A stretch of DNA of 64,000 nt. Origin: a virus. The position numbers and the translations under genes are program-made. The DNA lies in IMG/VR virus record IMGVR_UViG_3300034107_000725, positions 124,001 to 188,000 of that record; one strand, 5' to 3'. Below the pieces are notes generated by a model that was not told where the DNA came from, did no database searches, and worked only from the letters and a program-made list of their open reading frames with translations. Shown piece by piece: positions 15,070 to 35,130 of the stretch. Within the stretch, counting starts at the first letter, position 1. Every line of letters starts with the position of its first letter.

Positions 15070-15804
15070 ATGAACAGCTATCTTGAAGAAGAGTATAAGC
15101 CCGCATACGACGCCTGGAAGCTAGACCAGACACCACCCGGCAACGCTGCCTTCCTGGAAGCGATTCATCCAATCGTGCAGAAGGGTGTGCAGATGTACGG
15201 AGGCGACAGTCCGTTATCCGCAAGTCGCGGACGTTTGATGGCTTTGGATGCTGTACGGAAGTACGATCCCTCCCGTTCGCGTTTGCAGTCTCACCTGCTA
15301 AACCAGATGCAAGGCTTACGCCGAGTCACGCAGCAGCAAAGTCAGGTTATGCGGGTACCCGAGCGAGTGCTATTGGAAAACCAGCAACTGCATAGGCAAA
15401 CGCAGGAACTTATGGATGACCTGGGTCGTGAACCTACGGATGCCGAGTTGGCTGACCGTATGGGCCTCTCCATGCCTCGCCTGACGCGTATTCGTAAATT
15501 CCAGCCCGGTATGAGCTCTGGACAAATTGAAGAACAAAATCCAATGGCAGGTGGCGGTGCCGGGCAAATTCCTGGGCAAAGGGACGCCGCAGATCTGTGG
15601 GCTGAGGTTGTGTATCAGGATCTAAGCCCGATGGATCAAGCCATCATGGAACGTACACTAGGCATGCGTGGCCATAAAAAAATGTCCAATCAAGATTTGG
15701 CTCGGCATTTGAGTCGCAGCCCTGGAGCAATCACTCAGCGTAAGATGAAAATCCAGCAGTTACTGGATCAGGAACGTGAGCTTTCCCCTTTTATTGCGGA
15801 GTAA
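15070..15804 (+). CDS. Sigma-70-family-like protein inside the baseplate cluster
   Basis: A 244-residue protein that aligns by eye with RNA polymerase sigma factors. Residues ~50-85 match region 2 (LMALDAVRKYDPSRS), ~92-145 match region 3 (VMRVPERV, then DLGREPTDAELADRMGLS), and ~205-232 form a region-4-like helix-turn-helix (SNQDLARHLSRSPGAITQRK). In region 2.3 the aromatic residues that melt the -10 element in canonical sigmas are replaced by RLQSHLLNQMQGL, so it may not open promoters in the usual way. It could direct late transcription, act as an anti- or pseudo-sigma, or be a structural protein derived from a sigma factor. It lies 2 bases after the hub gene. Confidence 0.7.
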   Translation: MNSYLEEEYKPAYDAWKLDQTPPGNAAFLEAIHPIVQKGVQMYGGDSPLSASRGRLMALDAVRKYDPSRSRLQSHLLNQMQGLRRVTQQQSQVMRVPERVLLENQQLHRQTQELMDDLGREPTDAELADRMGLSMPRLTRIRKFQPGMSSGQIEEQNPMAGGGAGQIPGQRDAADLWAEVVYQDLSPMDQAIMERTLGMRGHKKMSNQDLARHLSRSPGAITQRKMKIQQLLDQERELSPFIAE

Positions 15805-16767: not shown

Positions 16768-18438
16768 ATGAGCCTGACCGTATCAAACTTTGAATTGTCC
16801 AACCTGACAGACCTCGACAACGCCGATGTCCAACAGGTGTTGGAACAGTTGACGACTCAGCTGCAGGAACTCAACCCTTCGTTAGATCTTAAACGAGGGG
16901 TTTTTAAAGATATCGTGGCGTACTATCACGCCGTGCTTGAGACGGCAATTCGTACAAATTTGGAACGCTACCAGTCTGCTCGCAGTCTACAGCAGATTAA
17001 CGCCAACGCCGTTGCCGCAGATTCCACAGTCGTAGATGAGGTTCTTTCTAATTGGGGCATAACCCGTAAGACAGGAACCAGAGCAATAGGTTCGGTCACT
17101 ATCGAGATCAGTCAGGCTCGCTCAGTAACCATACCGGCTAACTTCACTTTCTCTGTAAACGGATTAACCTACGTCGCGACTCAGACCTTCACCTCGAGAA
17201 CAAGTGAAGGACAGATTTCTAATCCTGTCACTGACCGCTTACTGGTACAACTGAGTAACGGAAACTGGGCCTTCACTATTGAGGTGGAAGCTGAAGACGT
17301 AGGTTCAAAATATAAGCTAAACGCCGGGGATACGTTAAACCCGGATCGAACCGTCGTATCCTTTGTCGCCAGTTACGCGACCTCTACATTTAATGACGGT
17401 TTAGACGCAGAGACCAACGAACAATTAATCGCTGAACTACAGTTGGGCCTGGCGGCCAAGGCGTTGTCTAACCGCACTAACATGCGATCTTATCTGCGAT
17501 CCATACCTGCTTTGAATCTTATAACAAATCAATCCATTGTCGGTTACGGTGACGCCGAGATGTTGCGGGATCAACATACCATTTTTCCGGTCAGCTACGG
17601 TGGCAGAGTGGATTGGTACATTCGCGGCCAAGAAACCCTACAGCGGTTGGCTGTCACGGTAACCGCAACTTGTATCAGCATCGCGGGCAGTACCAGCACA
17701 TGGCAATTTGCACTAAACAAGAACGCATCGCCCGGATTTTACGAAGTCACTAAGATTCGACGACAACTTGACGCAAATTTAAATTCCGGATTTGAAATCA
17801 TTCTAGACAGTCGATCCAACGACCTGACAGGTGACGGGTTTATTCCGGACATTACTACAATAGCAGAAGGGGCGTACACCGCGTTTCAAACTGCGATCAT
17901 ACAGTTCGTAGATACTGTGACGCTTGTATCCGGGCTGGCTGTAGGGCAGACTGCTCTATACACTTGCGAGCTGATCGGCACTCCACTGATTCAAGAAATC
18001 CAAACACTGGTATCGAGCCGCGATGTCCGCAGTTATGCCGCAGATGCTTTGGTTAAAGCTCCGGTACCTTGTTTTGTACAGGTGACTCTTACCCTAAACA
18101 AGACAACAGGAACTATGGTCGACGCGGATATGATTGACAAGATCAAGCTCGCCATCATCGGTGTAGTCAATCGCACAGACTTCGTAGGCAGGTTGGACGG
18201 TTCCTATATCATTGAAGCCGTGCACGGTCTGATTACAGATAACATAAGCATAACTCAATTGGATCTTCTGGGACGTATACGTAGACCAGACGGTACATTA
18301 CAATATTTACGAGACCCGGATTCAATTGTGATCCCGGAGCAACCGGTTAAGATGGTGACAGCAAAAACGGTTCAATTTTTTGCAGAGGTTGCAGATGTGT
18401 CCGTTAACGTAGCATCTACGATTCCTACGGCAAACTAA
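16768..18438 (+). CDS. Baseplate J-like wedge protein
   Basis: A 556-residue protein with the baseplate J (gp47/gpJ) organisation. The N-terminal helical part includes a conserved 'RGVFKDIVAYYHAVLETAI' type helix and a SxNxA region (QQINANAVAADSTVVDEVLSNWGI). This precedes a beta-barrel segment (IPANFTFSVNGLTYVATQTF). A C-terminal region around VTLTLNKTTGTMVDADMIDKIKLAIIG resembles the J-like ferredoxin-type repeat. It follows the gp25-like gene, and the protease cassette starts right after it. Confidence 0.75.
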   Translation: MSLTVSNFELSNLTDLDNADVQQVLEQLTTQLQELNPSLDLKRGVFKDIVAYYHAVLETAIRTNLERYQSARSLQQINANAVAADSTVVDEVLSNWGITRKTGTRAIGSVTIEISQARSVTIPANFTFSVNGLTYVATQTFTSRTSEGQISNPVTDRLLVQLSNGNWAFTIEVEAEDVGSKYKLNAGDTLNPDRTVVSFVASYATSTFNDGLDAETNEQLIAELQLGLAAKALSNRTNMRSYLRSIPALNLITNQSIVGYGDAEMLRDQHTIFPVSYGGRVDWYIRGQETLQRLAVTVTATCISIAGSTSTWQFALNKNASPGFYEVTKIRRQLDANLNSGFEIILDSRSNDLTGDGFIPDITTIAEGAYTAFQTAIIQFVDTVTLVSGLAVGQTALYTCELIGTPLIQEIQTLVSSRDVRSYAADALVKAPVPCFVQVTLTLNKTTGTMVDADMIDKIKLAIIGVVNRTDFVGRLDGSYIIEAVHGLITDNISITQLDLLGRIRRPDGTLQYLRDPDSIVIPEQPVKMVTAKTVQFFAEVADVSVNVASTIPTAN

Positions 18439-18453
18439 CAGGAGGTTACTTGC

Positions 18454-19368
18454 GTGGCAAAACGAGCAAGCGGACGAGCAGAAGCTATTCGATTGTTGAA
18501 GCAAGACGGTGGTGAAGATCAACGCACCCCGCAACAGATGACGTTTGCCGTGAACTACTTGACGTTCTTTGGCTACATTGCAGTACACTTGCTGCAAAAC
18601 CTGGAACTCAAAGATATCAAGGCAGCGATCAAGGCTTTTCAAAAAATCTTTGGCCTAAAAGAGGACGGCACACTCACGCCGCAAACTTTACGTGCCATGG
18701 AAGGACCTCGATGTGGTTGTCCTGACCACATTGACGCGGACAATAAAAACCACCTTCAATTCATGCGGGCTCAAGAGATCTCAATCGAGAAACGAGATCG
18801 CTGGAACAAGCAAGGATTGAAGTACTTTATCGAGAAGTATCCGACGACCAAGATTCACAAAGACGAGCAGTCGCTTATCTTTGCGTCTGCCTTCCGGGCG
18901 TGGGATGACGTGTGTGGTCTAAATATTTTAGAGTGCAAGAAGGCTGCCGATGCGGATATCATTGTATCTGTAGGCAGTGGGCCTCAGCACAACTTTGACG
19001 GTGTCGGTGGTACGCTAGCCTGGGCCTATCTACCCACGGGAACAGATCAGCAGCTTACGATGCGATTTGACCTCGAAGAAACTTGGGTAGCTAAACCAAA
19101 AGATCGTGGTGTCTTGCTGCACAACGTGGCCTGCCACGAGTTTGGACATCTTTTGGGACTAACCCATTCAAAGCGACCTAGTGCTTTGATGGCTCCATAC
19201 TACAACCCATTTGTCGCTGTCCCGCAAGAGGACGATGACATCACACGAATTGAAAAACTTTACGGCAAAAACAACCAAATTGCCGCAATTCATGAAGTCA
19301 GTAAAGTTGGCTCTAACCTGACAGTGGAACTGCAGCCGGGCCAAAAACTTACGGTTGTTTGCAAATAA
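18454..19368 (+). CDS. Matrix metalloprotease (matrixin, M10A-like) with cysteine switch
   Basis: A 304-residue zinc metalloprotease. Residues ~33-83 form a peptidoglycan-binding-like prodomain (KAFQKIFGLKEDGTLTPQTL), followed by PRCGCPD at 85-91, the 'cysteine switch' that keeps animal matrix metalloproteases latent by binding the zinc through Cys87. The catalytic domain follows: a QHNFDGVGGTLAWAY segment (residues 178-192) as in matrixins, the zinc site HEFGHLLGLTH (His228, Glu229, His232, His238), and the Met-turn with Met246 (SALMAPYY). There is no signal peptide. GTG start with a strong AGGAGGT. The neighbours are small membrane proteins and a papain-like protease, suggesting envelope degradation at lysis or entry. 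Substrate unknown. Confidence 0.9.
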   Translation: MAKRASGRAEAIRLLKQDGGEDQRTPQQMTFAVNYLTFFGYIAVHLLQNLELKDIKAAIKAFQKIFGLKEDGTLTPQTLRAMEGPRCGCPDHIDADNKNHLQFMRAQEISIEKRDRWNKQGLKYFIEKYPTTKIHKDEQSLIFASAFRAWDDVCGLNILECKKAADADIIVSVGSGPQHNFDGVGGTLAWAYLPTGTDQQLTMRFDLEETWVAKPKDRGVLLHNVACHEFGHLLGLTHSKRPSALMAPYYNPFVAVPQEDDDITRIEKLYGKNNQIAAIHEVSKVGSNLTVELQPGQKLTVVCK

Positions 19369-19379
19369 GGAGATCGATC

Positions 19380-19781
19380 ATGCCGATGACACAGCTCACT
19401 TTGGATCTGGGTACTTTCGTGACTGCGATCAAGTACCTACTCGCTGCCTGTCTAGTAGCAGTCTGCGTGTTCACGTTTGTCATTCCCTGGATACGTGACT
19501 TGCTAACCAAGGAAGCCGAAGTTGTTGCAAACCCACGAGCGTCAGGGTTGCCTCGCTTTCGGCGTCGTGACGAAAATCACTGTAGCGACACCCCACCTCC
19601 ATCCGGATTCGCTGACCACTTGAAGGTCATTGAAGCCACGGCTCCCAACGCAGATCCAAAAATCTGGTGGGAATACGCCAAGGCTGAAATGACCGAGGCC
19701 GAAGTTGCAATCGCTGAAGCCAAGTTGGCTCGGGTTTGCAGCGATGTGACCGCAACTGTGGTGCCAGGGGGGACGATATGA
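19380..19781 (+). CDS. Small membrane protein, holin-like candidate
   Basis: A 133-residue protein with one transmembrane segment at about residues 14-37 (AIKYLLAACLVAVCVFTF), a short charged stretch, then a soluble region rich in Ala/Glu (EMTEAEVAIAEAKLARV). ATG at 19380 is chosen because AAGGAG sits at 19367-19372; an in-frame ATG at 19359 lies inside the protease gene. Its stop overlaps the next ATG (ATGA). Lysis role (holin or spanin-like anchor) is inferred from the cassette only. Confidence 0.65.
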   Translation: MPMTQLTLDLGTFVTAIKYLLAACLVAVCVFTFVIPWIRDLLTKEAEVVANPRASGLPRFRRRDENHCSDTPPPSGFADHLKVIEATAPNADPKIWWEYAKAEMTEAEVAIAEAKLARVCSDVTATVVPGGTI

Positions 19782-20143
19782 AACCCAAATACACGGGGTT
19801 GTTCTGTGGTGTTGCGGGGGTCCTGCTTCTGCTTTGGCCTTCGCAACAGAGTTCACGGCCTACCCCGCCGCCCCCTCCACCGGTAGTTTTGGATTTGCCG
19901 GGTAAGGCTTTTGCCACATATGAAAAGCTGTGGCGAAAGCATACCCAAGATGCCGCTGATAAAATTGTCAGCGGTACGTTAAAAGACGAAAAATCTGTGT
20001 GGGACTTCTTGGCCGCTGGCCAAGAACCTGCACGTAAGGTTGCGTTTGACGAGCTGGCCAAATCTGAGCAGGACTATTTCATCAAGCAAGGTGGCTGGTC
20101 CGCTGCTGCTCATGAGAAGCTATTAAGGAGCTATGCGAAATGA
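19778..20143 (+). CDS. Small N-terminally anchored protein
   Basis: A 121-residue protein with an N-terminal hydrophobic segment (residues 7-20, GLFCGVAGVLLLLW), a run of prolines (residues 28-35), and a helical charged C-terminal domain. The layout is that of an inner-membrane-anchored protein with a rigid linker, as in i-spanins, but no spanin homology is evident. ATG at 19778 overlaps the upstream TGA and follows GGGGGGA. Its end overlaps the papain-like protease start by 4 bases. Confidence 0.65.
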   Translation: MKPKYTGLFCGVAGVLLLLWPSQQSSRPTPPPPPPVVLDLPGKAFATYEKLWRKHTQDAADKIVSGTLKDEKSVWDFLAAGQEPARKVAFDELAKSEQDYFIKQGGWSAAAHEKLLRSYAK

Positions 20144-20961
20144 GCGAATCGCAAACACCTTACGACTACAACTGGGAACTAGAAGATCATGGTTACCTTC
20201 AGGCCTTGCCTGAGGCTCCCATGACTACTGATGCCTGGCAAGTCTTTTCGCGTCCGTCAGAGGTTGATGCCAGTTGGCACAACAACGAAAACCAAGGTCA
20301 AATTGGAAGCTGTCAAGGTAACGGGCTGAGCTCGGTCCTGGAACGTCTTGCCTTTGTACAGGGCAAGACTGTTCAACTATCTCGGATCTTCGCTTACTTG
20401 GCAACTCAGAAAATTGACGGGCTGTTGGGAGCGGACAACGGATCTACTATCGCAGGTGGTTGCAAACTTGCAGTAGAGTCTGGTTGTCCGCTTGAGGCTG
20501 CCACAGGGTATCCTTCACGGTATCCGAATGCGACAGAGCGAATTCAAATTCTCAGCCAGGCCAATTACAGTGCCGGGGCTCCTTACAAAGCTAAATCTGC
20601 CTGGCAAGTACCTAAAGATCATAATCAACTTCTAGATTTTATCGGAGGCGGTGGCGGCATCACTTTCGGGGTCCGCTGGTACAATGGGCTTATCCCACAG
20701 GACCGGATTGTTCGCTCTTTCCGGCCTGCCCGTTGCAGTGGCGGGCATGCCATGTGCGTGCTTGGCTACGACACAGATGGAAACTTACGAGCTTACAATT
20801 CCTGGGGTGACGGTTTGTACACAATCACCCCGGAAGCCTGGGTTCAAATGCTGTCAGATAGTTCTACCGCGGCGATCGGGTTAATGGGCAACGTAAACGC
20901 CGAGCCGATTGACTGGTATCGTAACTCTCCCTACTTCAAGCTAAGGATGAAACCAGAGTGA
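20140..20961 (+). CDS. Papain-like cysteine protease (C1 family)
   Basis: A 273-residue protein with the C1 peptidase signature. NQGQIGSCQGN supplies the oxyanion Gln52 and nucleophile Cys58; GGHAMCVLGY supplies His203, and AYNSWGDGLYTI supplies Asn220 in the conserved N-S-W-G. A central DNGSTIAGGCKLAVESGCPLE segment also fits the fold. There is no prodomain or signal peptide, so the enzyme is likely active in the cytoplasm or exported by another route. It lies in the same overlapping gene string as the matrixin, so both proteases are probably made together late in infection. Confidence 0.85.
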   Translation: MSESQTPYDYNWELEDHGYLQALPEAPMTTDAWQVFSRPSEVDASWHNNENQGQIGSCQGNGLSSVLERLAFVQGKTVQLSRIFAYLATQKIDGLLGADNGSTIAGGCKLAVESGCPLEAATGYPSRYPNATERIQILSQANYSAGAPYKAKSAWQVPKDHNQLLDFIGGGGGITFGVRWYNGLIPQDRIVRSFRPARCSGGHAMCVLGYDTDGNLRAYNSWGDGLYTITPEAWVQMLSDSSTAAIGLMGNVNAEPIDWYRNSPYFKLRMKPE

Positions 20962-21674
20962 ATCGTACTACGTTTAGTGTAAAACACCTGCAGTTCGTAG
21001 CTGCGGGTGTTGCCTGTGTAGGTTTACTGGGATTGGGCTTCATGCTATCCCTTGTCTCTGCCGAGGCAGTTGCAGCTCCTCCACAGATAGTCATGGCGAC
21101 CGCGGATGATACTCTTGTCAGTAAGTTTGATGAGGAAGTCAAATCTGCGTTGGTAGACAACCATCAGAAGCAGATGGCTGCGTTGTCTGACCAAAAAACC
21201 ATGCTGCAGAAACTAGATCAATCCGTTCAGCAGTTGTTGGTAAAATCAAAAGAACAGCCAACGCCGCCTCCGGCTCCTCAAGCAGAGACCAAACCCAAAG
21301 TTCAGCCGACTCCAAAGCCTGAACCTGCAAAGGCAATAGCTCCAGCACCTGTAGCTACCACAACTTTGCCAAACCCTGTTCGTCGTTCCAGCATCATTTG
21401 GAATTTGAACAATCGTTGGGACTATTCCACGGAAGAGCTGACGGCCCACTTACTGGCCGAACACAATTTTGAGGCAGCTTCCTACGATCGAGAACAACTT
21501 CAAACGGTACACGACAACCTGCATAACGGGTACACCGCTCTAGGTGACACGGTCGTGCAAGCTCCTGTAGCTCAATCACCTGCGGTACACTATCACTATA
21601 CAGCACCTCAGCGACGTGGCTGGGGACTGCGAAGTGTTGCTTCTTGCCCTGGAGGGACTTGTCCAACGCCATGA
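20958..21674 (+). CDS. Anchored protein with coiled coil and Pro/Lys-rich stalk
   Basis: A 238-residue protein. A hydrophobic segment at residues 13-36 ends in SAEAVAA, so it is either a signal peptide or an anchor. A coiled coil follows (residues ~52-95), then a Pro/Lys/Ala-rich stalk, then a helical domain (STEELTAHLLAEHNFEAASY) and a His/Tyr-rich tail ending in CPGGTCPTP. The architecture suggests an envelope-spanning protein. GTG start overlapping the protease stop. No family recognised. Confidence 0.6.
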   Translation: MNRTTFSVKHLQFVAAGVACVGLLGLGFMLSLVSAEAVAAPPQIVMATADDTLVSKFDEEVKSALVDNHQKQMAALSDQKTMLQKLDQSVQQLLVKSKEQPTPPPAPQAETKPKVQPTPKPEPAKAIAPAPVATTTLPNPVRRSSIIWNLNNRWDYSTEELTAHLLAEHNFEAASYDREQLQTVHDNLHNGYTALGDTVVQAPVAQSPAVHYHYTAPQRRGWGLRSVASCPGGTCPTP

Positions 21675-21985: not shown

Positions 21986-22341
21986 ACTGGGACGCCTTAA
22001 CCTTAGAATGTTGCCGAGAGCATGGATGCTCTGACCAGCATATCGATATGGCAATGGCTGGTCCGTATTCTCGAACAATCGTTCAAGATATGCGGCGAAA
22101 ACAAATTGACGTACGCACTGCTTCAGATGCCGTACGCCGAGCCTATCTGGCTAATCCACAGGCTAGCCGAGAAGAGATGCGACGGCAGTCGTATAAATTC
22201 ATTCTTGGTGGCATCCTTCTTACGATACTACTGCAAGCTCTATTATCCGCCGTAGCCAAGATGGCTATCGAGTGGTTTTTAGATCACGTCTTCAACAAGC
22301 AGGAAACCCGCAATGGCGGTATATCGCTACCCCCAGAATAA
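21982..22341 (+). CDS. Small C-terminally membrane-anchored protein
   Basis: A 119-residue protein with a soluble helical N-terminal part containing CCREHGC and a C-terminal transmembrane helix (about residues 72-96, FILGGILLTILLQALLSAVA) followed by a short tail. It ends the overlapping protease/membrane cassette; its end overlaps the next tail gene by 29 bases. It could be a holin or anti-holin, but a single TM segment is weak evidence. Confidence 0.6.
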   Translation: MNWDALTLECCREHGCSDQHIDMAMAGPYSRTIVQDMRRKQIDVRTASDAVRRAYLANPQASREEMRRQSYKFILGGILLTILLQALLSAVAKMAIEWFLDHVFNKQETRNGGISLPPE

Positions 22342-23887
22342 TTTCGACACACCGGAACTATTGCTGGACCTATTGGGCAGTTTCTGGGCTAACACCTACC
22401 AAGGCACTGCTTTGGTAGGTGATTTAACAAGTACTGCCGGGCAAATCGCCCAGCAGACTTATCTGCACCTGCTGGAATTGATAAACAGCGTATCTCGGTT
22501 TGATGTGCCCGTCTACCATCAGGACAATTGGTACGGATTAACCATACGTGAGTCTGAGTTAAACACGGACCCGTCTCTGCTGCCGCAACATACAACACCG
22601 TCCAGCTATCAGTTCCTTAGTGACGCAACTCTGAGTTATAGCACAGATCCTCAAACAGTAAGACAAAGCCTACAACTATTTGTTGTCACCAAACCGACTG
22701 GCCTTGAGAACGTCAAACTGATTTTTAACCGGCTGACGTCACCGACAGTTGAGCTCCAGAATGGTTTGGACTACTGGATCACAGACTCTGTGATTGTCTT
22801 CCGAGACAATCCATTCAATAATCCGCTGATTGCCCGTCGAGATCTGCTCAATAACTCCGGGCAGATTGTTGACCGCGAGCTCGTCCTTTGGTTGTACCGT
22901 GGTTTATGGGACTGGAATACAGTTTATGAGCAGTTTGGTTACGCCTTACAGCTTCAGTTGAAGTCGAGTGAAGGTTATAAGTCATTTTTAAACGCCATTT
23001 TTGATGCACTTGTAGAAGGTACCAGCCTCCGCACCCAGCAGTTTGCGTTGGCTGCCGTCTACGGTGTGCCGCTAATTATCGAAGCGACTGAAACGGTCGA
23101 GACGATTGCAAAAGATGCGGATAAGCTGAACATCATTACAGATAGTCACGCTTACCAGTTCCCAGTGACTGCGATACCTCTCGTACAGGTCGGGGACGTT
23201 GTACGTGCTGGTGACTCGATAACGAACCTGTTGCAAGTATTTGAGCTCAACCGAGGAGCTGAGATCTCTCCAGCAGACATACAGGCATTAACTATCGGTA
23301 CAGGTGTGCTGGCCTGGGGCTTCTGGGGCGATTTGACGTTTGAAAATAAACAAGTACCCGTCATAGTCGAATCAGATACGGCTGGTCGCACCAAAGTCTC
23401 ATGGGCACTTGGTGGATTTCCGTTTGACGTGGAAAACTTCTGGGACGAAGTACACGCAGCAGGAGTTCAGAAAGGGCAGACGCTTGCCAACTTACTGGAC
23501 ACACGGGAAAATCCTGTAGGGCAGCCCACCGCAGGTATGTTGCCAACCACCATAAATCCATTCCAGTTCCTGACAAATAACCTTTTACGGAATAACGCCT
23601 ACCTGGTTAAAGTGCGGCCAGGCAGTGAACTTACCGATCGACTGGACTTCATGCCGGTAGAGCAGTTGCGTAAGATTCAACCGCCGCATACTCTAATGTT
23701 GCTGATTGTTGAATTGGTTCACAGGGATAGTCCTGTTATCATGGAAAATCCAGGAACCGAGACCGATCCGGGCTACGTAGAAACCTTGAGCGGATTTCCT
23801 TGCATGGTCAACTCAGATGATATGGACCCTGCAGTGTACGTGGCCGAGCGGGTTAGAACCAGCGTCATTGGCGGTCGGTGCGTCTAA
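22313..23887 (+). CDS. Putative tail/baseplate protein
   Basis: A 524-residue protein resuming the structural operon after the protease cassette. The N-terminus is helical and Leu-rich (TPELLLDLLGSFWANTYQG); the rest is mixed, with beta-strands around residues 270-330 (VVRAGDSITNLLQVFEL). The ATG follows CAGGAAA within the end of the previous gene. No family is recognised; a wedge or tail-completion role is inferred from place and size. Confidence 0.55.
   Translation: MAVYRYPQNNFDTPELLLDLLGSFWANTYQGTALVGDLTSTAGQIAQQTYLHLLELINSVSRFDVPVYHQDNWYGLTIRESELNTDPSLLPQHTTPSSYQFLSDATLSYSTDPQTVRQSLQLFVVTKPTGLENVKLIFNRLTSPTVELQNGLDYWITDSVIVFRDNPFNNPLIARRDLLNNSGQIVDRELVLWLYRGLWDWNTVYEQFGYALQLQLKSSEGYKSFLNAIFDALVEGTSLRTQQFALAAVYGVPLIIEATETVETIAKDADKLNIITDSHAYQFPVTAIPLVQVGDVVRAGDSITNLLQVFELNRGAEISPADIQALTIGTGVLAWGFWGDLTFENKQVPVIVESDTAGRTKVSWALGGFPFDVENFWDEVHAAGVQKGQTLANLLDTRENPVGQPTAGMLPTTINPFQFLTNNLLRNNAYLVKVRPGSELTDRLDFMPVEQLRKIQPPHTLMLLIVELVHRDSPVIMENPGTETDPGYVETLSGFPCMVNSDDMDPAVYVAERVRTSVIGGRCV

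Positions 23888-32586: not shown

Positions 32587-35130
<2,544 letters not shown>

Follow-up and report, generated by a model that had tools for sequence, protein, structure and literature searches.

The window, a 64,000-nucleotide stretch of DNA, is part of a 193,990-base IMG/VR virus record that encodes a contractile sheath, a baseplate J protein, and TerL, and judged from this gene content the source is a large contractile-tailed phage. Within its tail region lies a gene whose predicted product has the layout of a matrix metalloprotease (MMP) in zymogen form:

18454..19368, plus strand: predicted matrixin zymogen gene (304 aa, GTG start; N-terminus not signal-peptide-like)
18440..18445, plus strand: Shine-Dalgarno-like AGGAGG, 8 bases 5' of the GTG start, recognized from the sequence
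18541..18705, plus strand: helical prodomain, residues 30-84, containing a PG_binding_1 match at residues 53-82
18706..18726, plus strand: cysteine switch PRCGCPD, residues 85-91, with the Cys87 codon at 18712-18714
18799..19266, plus strand: catalytic domain, residues 116-271 (Pfam Peptidase_M10)
19135..19167, plus strand: zinc site HEFGHLLGLTH, residues 228-238, with Cys227 just before it
19189..19191, plus strand: Met-turn methionine Met246, within ALMAPYY
19294..19359, plus strand: C-terminal beta element of the predicted model, residues 281-302

The Peptidase_M10 match is strong (E 2.9e-33; 115.4 bits against a curated cut-off of 24), the PG_binding_1 match in the prodomain has an E value of 1.2e-7, and in a phmmer search of the PDB human proMMP-9 aligned to residues 31-271, prodomain included (E 6.8e-28). 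We are therefore close to certain that the protein is a matrixin zymogen (proMMP). The sequence-only reading had described a canonical switch at residues 85-91, a prodomain resembling those of vertebrate MMPs, and a zinc site and Met-turn downstream, and the translation, with Cys87, residues 228-238, and Met246 in place, together with the proMMP-9 alignment, agrees with it on each of these. A hydropathy scan, the one method used for this feature, revealed no signal-like N-terminus and low N-terminal hydropathy in both the window protein and its family.

That reading had, however, treated a latent phage MMP as a single unexpected case, whereas it belongs to a conserved phage family. Seed members were obtained from IMG/VR with a DNA pattern for the zinc site, and the family was searched with patterns for the zinc site (HExxH) and the Met-turn, leaving the switch out; 79 loci were examined among 106 related IMG/VR stretches, many of them on 100-200 kb contigs. 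The motif RC[GAS]xx[DEN] lies at the right distance upstream of the zinc site in 75/79 homologous loci, a proportion that may be somewhat high because the query-alignment seeds were picked for having the motif and the ranking favors full-length relatives. Among 42 aligned members, which share 30-60% identity, Arg86, Cys87, His228, Glu229, His232, His238, and Met246 are invariant, Asp91 is kept in 41, and Cys227, beside the first zinc histidine, in 40. With the motif kept in 75/79 loci and Arg86 and Cys87 in all 42 members, a chance origin of the switch is excluded. The four exceptions (L147, L156, L159, and L162) are shorter proteins without the motif and without the helical prodomain, and the three read completely still have cysteines in a short prosegment, so that loss of the switch in exported relatives is at most a possibility. 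The family was not apparent from single-protein searches: tblastn of the window MMP against 50,697 named phage records gave no match, and a scan of IMG/VR with the single protein gave no close relatives. We note that L143, L147, L156, and L159, which are nested inside the phage group, encode short matrixins with twin-arginine-like or hydrophobic N-termini, in which a cysteine-bearing short prosegment replaces the helical prodomain. Elsewhere, one phage contig carries tandem MMP genes (L141:8264-10729), of which one has a KRCGVAD switch and the other lacks a canonical switch and has a signal-like N-terminus.

The predicted structure places the prodomain where a latent enzyme would have it. With 42 phage homologues as input, AlphaFold gave a model (pLDDT 86.4, pTM 0.82) that superseded one from nine sequences only (pLDDT 72.6). 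Compared with the PDB using Foldseek, it superposes on the whole zymogens of proMMP-9, proMMP-3, and proMMP-10 with target-normalized TM scores of 0.80-0.83 over about 250 columns; therefore, the prodomain is predicted to be positioned as in latent MMPs. Similarly, a profile of the 42 phage enzymes matches proMMP-1 in the PDB with an E value of 1.4e-51, covering prodomain and catalytic domain. A different account of the same region is that PRCGCPD has no role in latency and that the prodomain is simply a peptidoglycan-binding targeting module, as its Pfam label and a weak PHROG endolysin match across the same stretch could imply. However, PG_binding_1 is also the usual Pfam match of animal proMMP prodomains, the modeled docking follows that in proMMP crystal structures, and the conservation of Arg86, Cys87, and Asp91 persists despite the low overall identity, so that we regard a pure targeting role as very improbable. 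We conclude that cysteine-switch latency of the phage enzyme is highly probable, on the strength of sequence and model; because the invariant Cys87 sits in a canonical switch and the prodomain is, in the model, docked on an intact metzincin active site, the freshly made enzyme should be silent.

Full cysteine-switch MMPs are usually associated with animals (and plants), and the resemblance of the phage protein to animal proMMPs (MEROPS M10A; proMMP-1, -3, -9, and -10) is considerable, extending to the prodomain fold, PRCGxPD, HExxHxxGxxH, the Met-turn, and a full-length structural match. It differs from them in lacking a signal peptide and a hemopexin domain, and the near-invariant Cys227 of the phage enzymes is an alanine in the compared animal MMPs. 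The structural-zinc ligands (His/Asp/His/His) are also replaced (GPQH...LAW...TMRFD in the window protein versus HGD...LAH...DAHFD in MMP-9), and these positions are not conserved as ligands in the 42 members. A catalytic-domain tree unites the phage enzymes with the planctomycete prophage-like copies (97/95) and sets apart, as a second group (100/98), the three human MMPs that represent animals; with only three animal sequences, we make no claim about deep branching order or rooting. That a phage had recently captured an animal MMP might have been expected from the architecture, which is strongly similar to that of vertebrate proMMPs, but with all phage and planctomycete-prophage copies in a single group that leaves the animal MMPs outside, and with structural-zinc ligands replaced across the whole family, we consider such a capture extremely unlikely and reject it on the catalytic-domain tree, sampled with three human MMPs. 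A Chloroflexota metagenome-assembled genome (MAG) protein further weighs against it, having both PRCGFPD and the structural-zinc motifs, and the zymogen plan therefore exists in bacteria beyond the phage family. Secretory-looking N-termini are present in three matrixins encoded on planctomycete chromosomes (L410-L412), which lack the switch motif and keep FDGPGGVLAH and GD[VIL]HFD. The description of the enzyme as animal-type thus holds for its architecture and not for recent ancestry, the signal peptide, or the structural-zinc ligands. The broader proposal that the phage encodes a full cysteine-switch MMP zymogen stands in its architecture and its predicted docked prodomain; what falls away is that it is a single case and recently animal.

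Other matrixins and metzincins offer partial parallels. Karilysin of Tannerella forsythia likewise has an MMP-like catalytic domain in a prokaryotic protein, and its latency depends on a short prosegment with an aspartate, not on a cysteine switch. The MMPs of insect viruses (iridovirus, nudivirus, granulovirus, ascovirus, and entomopoxvirus) are also virus-encoded matrixins, but their viruses infect insects and about 25% or fewer of their residues match the phage enzyme; in a viral structure library the full-length match to the model is the iridovirus protein G0T5G2 (271 columns), and phage matches are weak. Among the latter, Maribacter phage Colly_1 and Lactobacillus phage 3-521 encode annotated matrixin-like zinc proteases with a related catalytic fold, although the matches (E 5e-3 and 1.7e-5, respectively) are weak and short, and the comparison is one of catalytic fold. 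Cysteine-switch latency has been shown in bacterial mirolysin (a pappalysin) and myroilysin (an astacin), as described in PMC6949598 (cited in PMC9848320); these belong to other metzincin families and do not have the MMP prodomain or PRCGxPD. A phage-derived metzincin pair is known in Listeria (PMC8235301), and a 2025 phylogeny of MMPs covers bacterial and archaeal members and is silent on phages and the switch (PMC12587646). In the open-access papers that we searched, with subscription papers outside that scope, we came across no description of a phage cysteine-switch MMP. If our broadest interpretation is correct, cysteine-switch MMP zymogens would have, beyond eukaryotes and the viruses that infect them, a previously unseen reservoir in phage and prophage lineages. 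That so widespread a phage family keeps the switch invariant implies that selection acts on this latency mechanism in bacterial viruses. The family is also relevant to the contested question of how MMPs originated, and it supplies a compact zymogen lacking the structural-zinc site.

The genomic setting indicates that the MMP gene is accessory cargo in a tail operon. The following plus-strand genes surround it:

16768..18438, plus strand: baseplate J-like protein, the upstream border of the accessory slot
19380..19781, plus strand: small protein with one N-terminal hydrophobic stretch, from the first ATG of the 19359-19781 ORF
19778..20143, plus strand: small protein with a hydrophobic N-terminus and 4-base overlaps with its neighbors, from the first ATG of the 19736-20143 ORF
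20140..20961, plus strand: papain-like cysteine protease with Cys, His, and Asn-Ser-Trp-Gly motifs, related to PDB 3ois
20958..21674, plus strand: protein with an N-terminal hydrophobic segment, overlapping the papain-like gene by 4 bases and not always conserved
22313..23887, plus strand: conserved tail gene, the downstream border of the slot, which adjoins baseplate J in MMP-less relatives

The MMP gene is directly 3' of baseplate J in the window's lineage, where the late tail operon is syntenic in 12 related loci, and it is always immediately after baseplate J in clade I. We compared these with relatives found through their terminase that have no detectable MMP. In three of them (L406, L408, and L409) baseplate J and the 22313-type tail gene are adjacent with nothing between, and in two others (L405 and L407) the slot holds other membrane and secreted cargo; the MMP therefore belongs to an accessory module. 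The module in the window has the order MMP, two small proteins with hydrophobic stretches, and papain-like protease, and a like order is seen in the largest clade, where the MMP gene and genes for small hydrophobic proteins precede one for a 341-aa protein with GDCVSW, HAM, and QNSWG; there the MMP gene is within a few kb of an RNA polymerase gene. We note that at L152:15553-19953 and other clade III loci a 1467-aa ORF a few genes past the MMP fuses Rpb2_6 (beta) and Rpb1_2 (beta-prime) domains.

The sequence-only reading had suggested the adjacent papain-like protease as an activator of the MMP. Constant pairing of the MMP with this gene is rejected, since the window-type papain gene is present in 5/38 other MMP-phage records. 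The pairing is partly restored by the second cysteine-protease-like family, that of the largest clade (for example at L152:11998-13020), which is assigned by motif order alone given that profile comparison did not link the two families and a PDB search with the second gave no match. Counting either family, 58 loci have a cysteine-protease-like gene 0.6-1.4 kb downstream of the MMP, and the combination of MMP, small hydrophobic proteins, and cysteine-protease-like gene occurs in two separate phage clades; clades Ib and II lack such a gene, and one relative has it but no MMP. Activation of the MMP by the papain-like protease is possible, though less likely than not. Clades Ib and II have, in place of the cysteine-protease-like gene, a gene for a secreted protein with an invariant CxxCH, a possible heme c site, for which Pfam, NCBIfam, and PDB searches gave no match. 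The protein is about 430-640 aa long and is encoded directly 3' of the MMP at L201:10814-12112 and at L206, L203, L130, L131, L133, and L136-L138. At yet another locus, an Emcibacter MAG contig with phage genes (L202:8391-10849), an MMP with PRCGRPD comes after genes for a membrane protein resembling holins and for a product with a weak match to phospholipase A2.

Several observations bear on the host. In a Planctomycetota MAG (L206), an MMP copy has TerL and portal genes next to it, and in the complete chromosome of Limnoglobus roseus (L204) a copy neighbors a tape-measure gene, downstream of it. The CxxCH family neighboring the MMP in clades Ib and II is present in five planctomycete genomes, in up to six copies, and absent from both non-planctomycete genomes searched (Emcibacter and Dehalococcoidia). 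As a host gene the MMP is rare: a search at E 1e-20 added four matches among 246 Planctomycetota genomes, and the other 248 Pseudomonadota genomes gave none. From this indirect evidence we conclude that the phages with this MMP family probably infect Planctomycetota, with a planctomycete host likely for several clades; it is plausible for the phage of the window, whose own record is without the planctomycete-type CxxCH partner gene.

The interpretation that we favor, and judge to be reasonably probable overall, is of a cytoplasmic proMMP that would be held inactive while virions assemble and switched on at release, probably to act on a planctomycete envelope. The enzyme would be made late, along with the tail genes, and would, for lack of a signal peptide, stay in the reducing cytoplasm, where the Cys-Zn bond could shield phage and host proteins. 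It would leave the cell through the membrane proteins of the module or by lysis, and its prodomain might be removed outside by thiol oxidation, self-cleavage, or the co-encoded papain-like protease where present. The freed MMP could then cut host envelope proteins and aid release or spread. A protease would suit planctomycete envelopes, for which a protein-rich composition has been described. Taken separately, the role in release or envelope cleavage is a serious possibility that falls somewhat short of probable. The presence of a silenced enzyme in related phages points to a protease that is kept under tight control and directed at the host. Among the best 25 Pfam families of 115 sampled ORFs there was no canonical endolysin.

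The position of the gene could equally signify a virion protein, namely, an entry protease carried as a zymogen in the baseplate or tail, activated on contact or ejection, and cutting the host surface protein layer. The invariable position after baseplate J within the tail operon of clade I and the location of the Limnoglobus roseus copy fit this, and the short C-terminal tail common to family members, comparable to residues 281-302, is a possible anchor. However, baseplate J adjoins the next tail gene without an MMP in the three relatives with an empty slot, and the MMP genes of the largest clade (near the RNA polymerase gene) and of L202 and L206 (near terminase genes) lie outside a baseplate operon; we think it unlikely that the enzyme is such a virion-borne entry protease. 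More broadly, and tentatively, the latent MMP, small membrane proteins, and (in two clades) cysteine protease of planctomycete phages might together serve as a proteolytic apparatus for leaving or entering through a protein-rich envelope, the switch safeguarding the cytoplasm. In either case, the family hints at how phages might handle the poorly understood planctomycete envelopes.

A role directed at the phage itself was also considered: collagen-like fibers of the virus would be trimmed or set free by its MMP, as a viral counterpart to collagen turnover. A 3030-aa ORF in the record contains 531 Gly-X-Y triplets, the window has a tail fiber with collagen repeats, and among records of at least 100 kb collagen repeats are found in 28/36 with an MMP and 5/17 without (Fisher p 0.002, the samples being non-random and non-independent). 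Within the window's terminase lineage, however, the association has p = 0.09; several MMP phages (such as G007, at 208 kb, G014, and G018) have no collagen matches and some MMP-less phages do, and collagen-like tail fibers are common in phages (PHROG matches). We therefore consider self-directed processing a decidedly unlikely alternative to action on the host envelope. The 3030-aa ORF (G000 C1:105906-114995; L293:5906-14995) is nearly proline-free, and the second collagen-like fiber is at 32602-35130 in the window. Beyond the window, G000 also has genes for several glycosyltransferases and a 2OG-Fe(II) oxygenase, enzymes that might modify collagen-like fibers. Finally, the baseplate operon of the window includes a Sigma-70 region 3-like protein (15070-15804), which reaches up to 68% identity in relatives and is conserved like the flanking structural genes.
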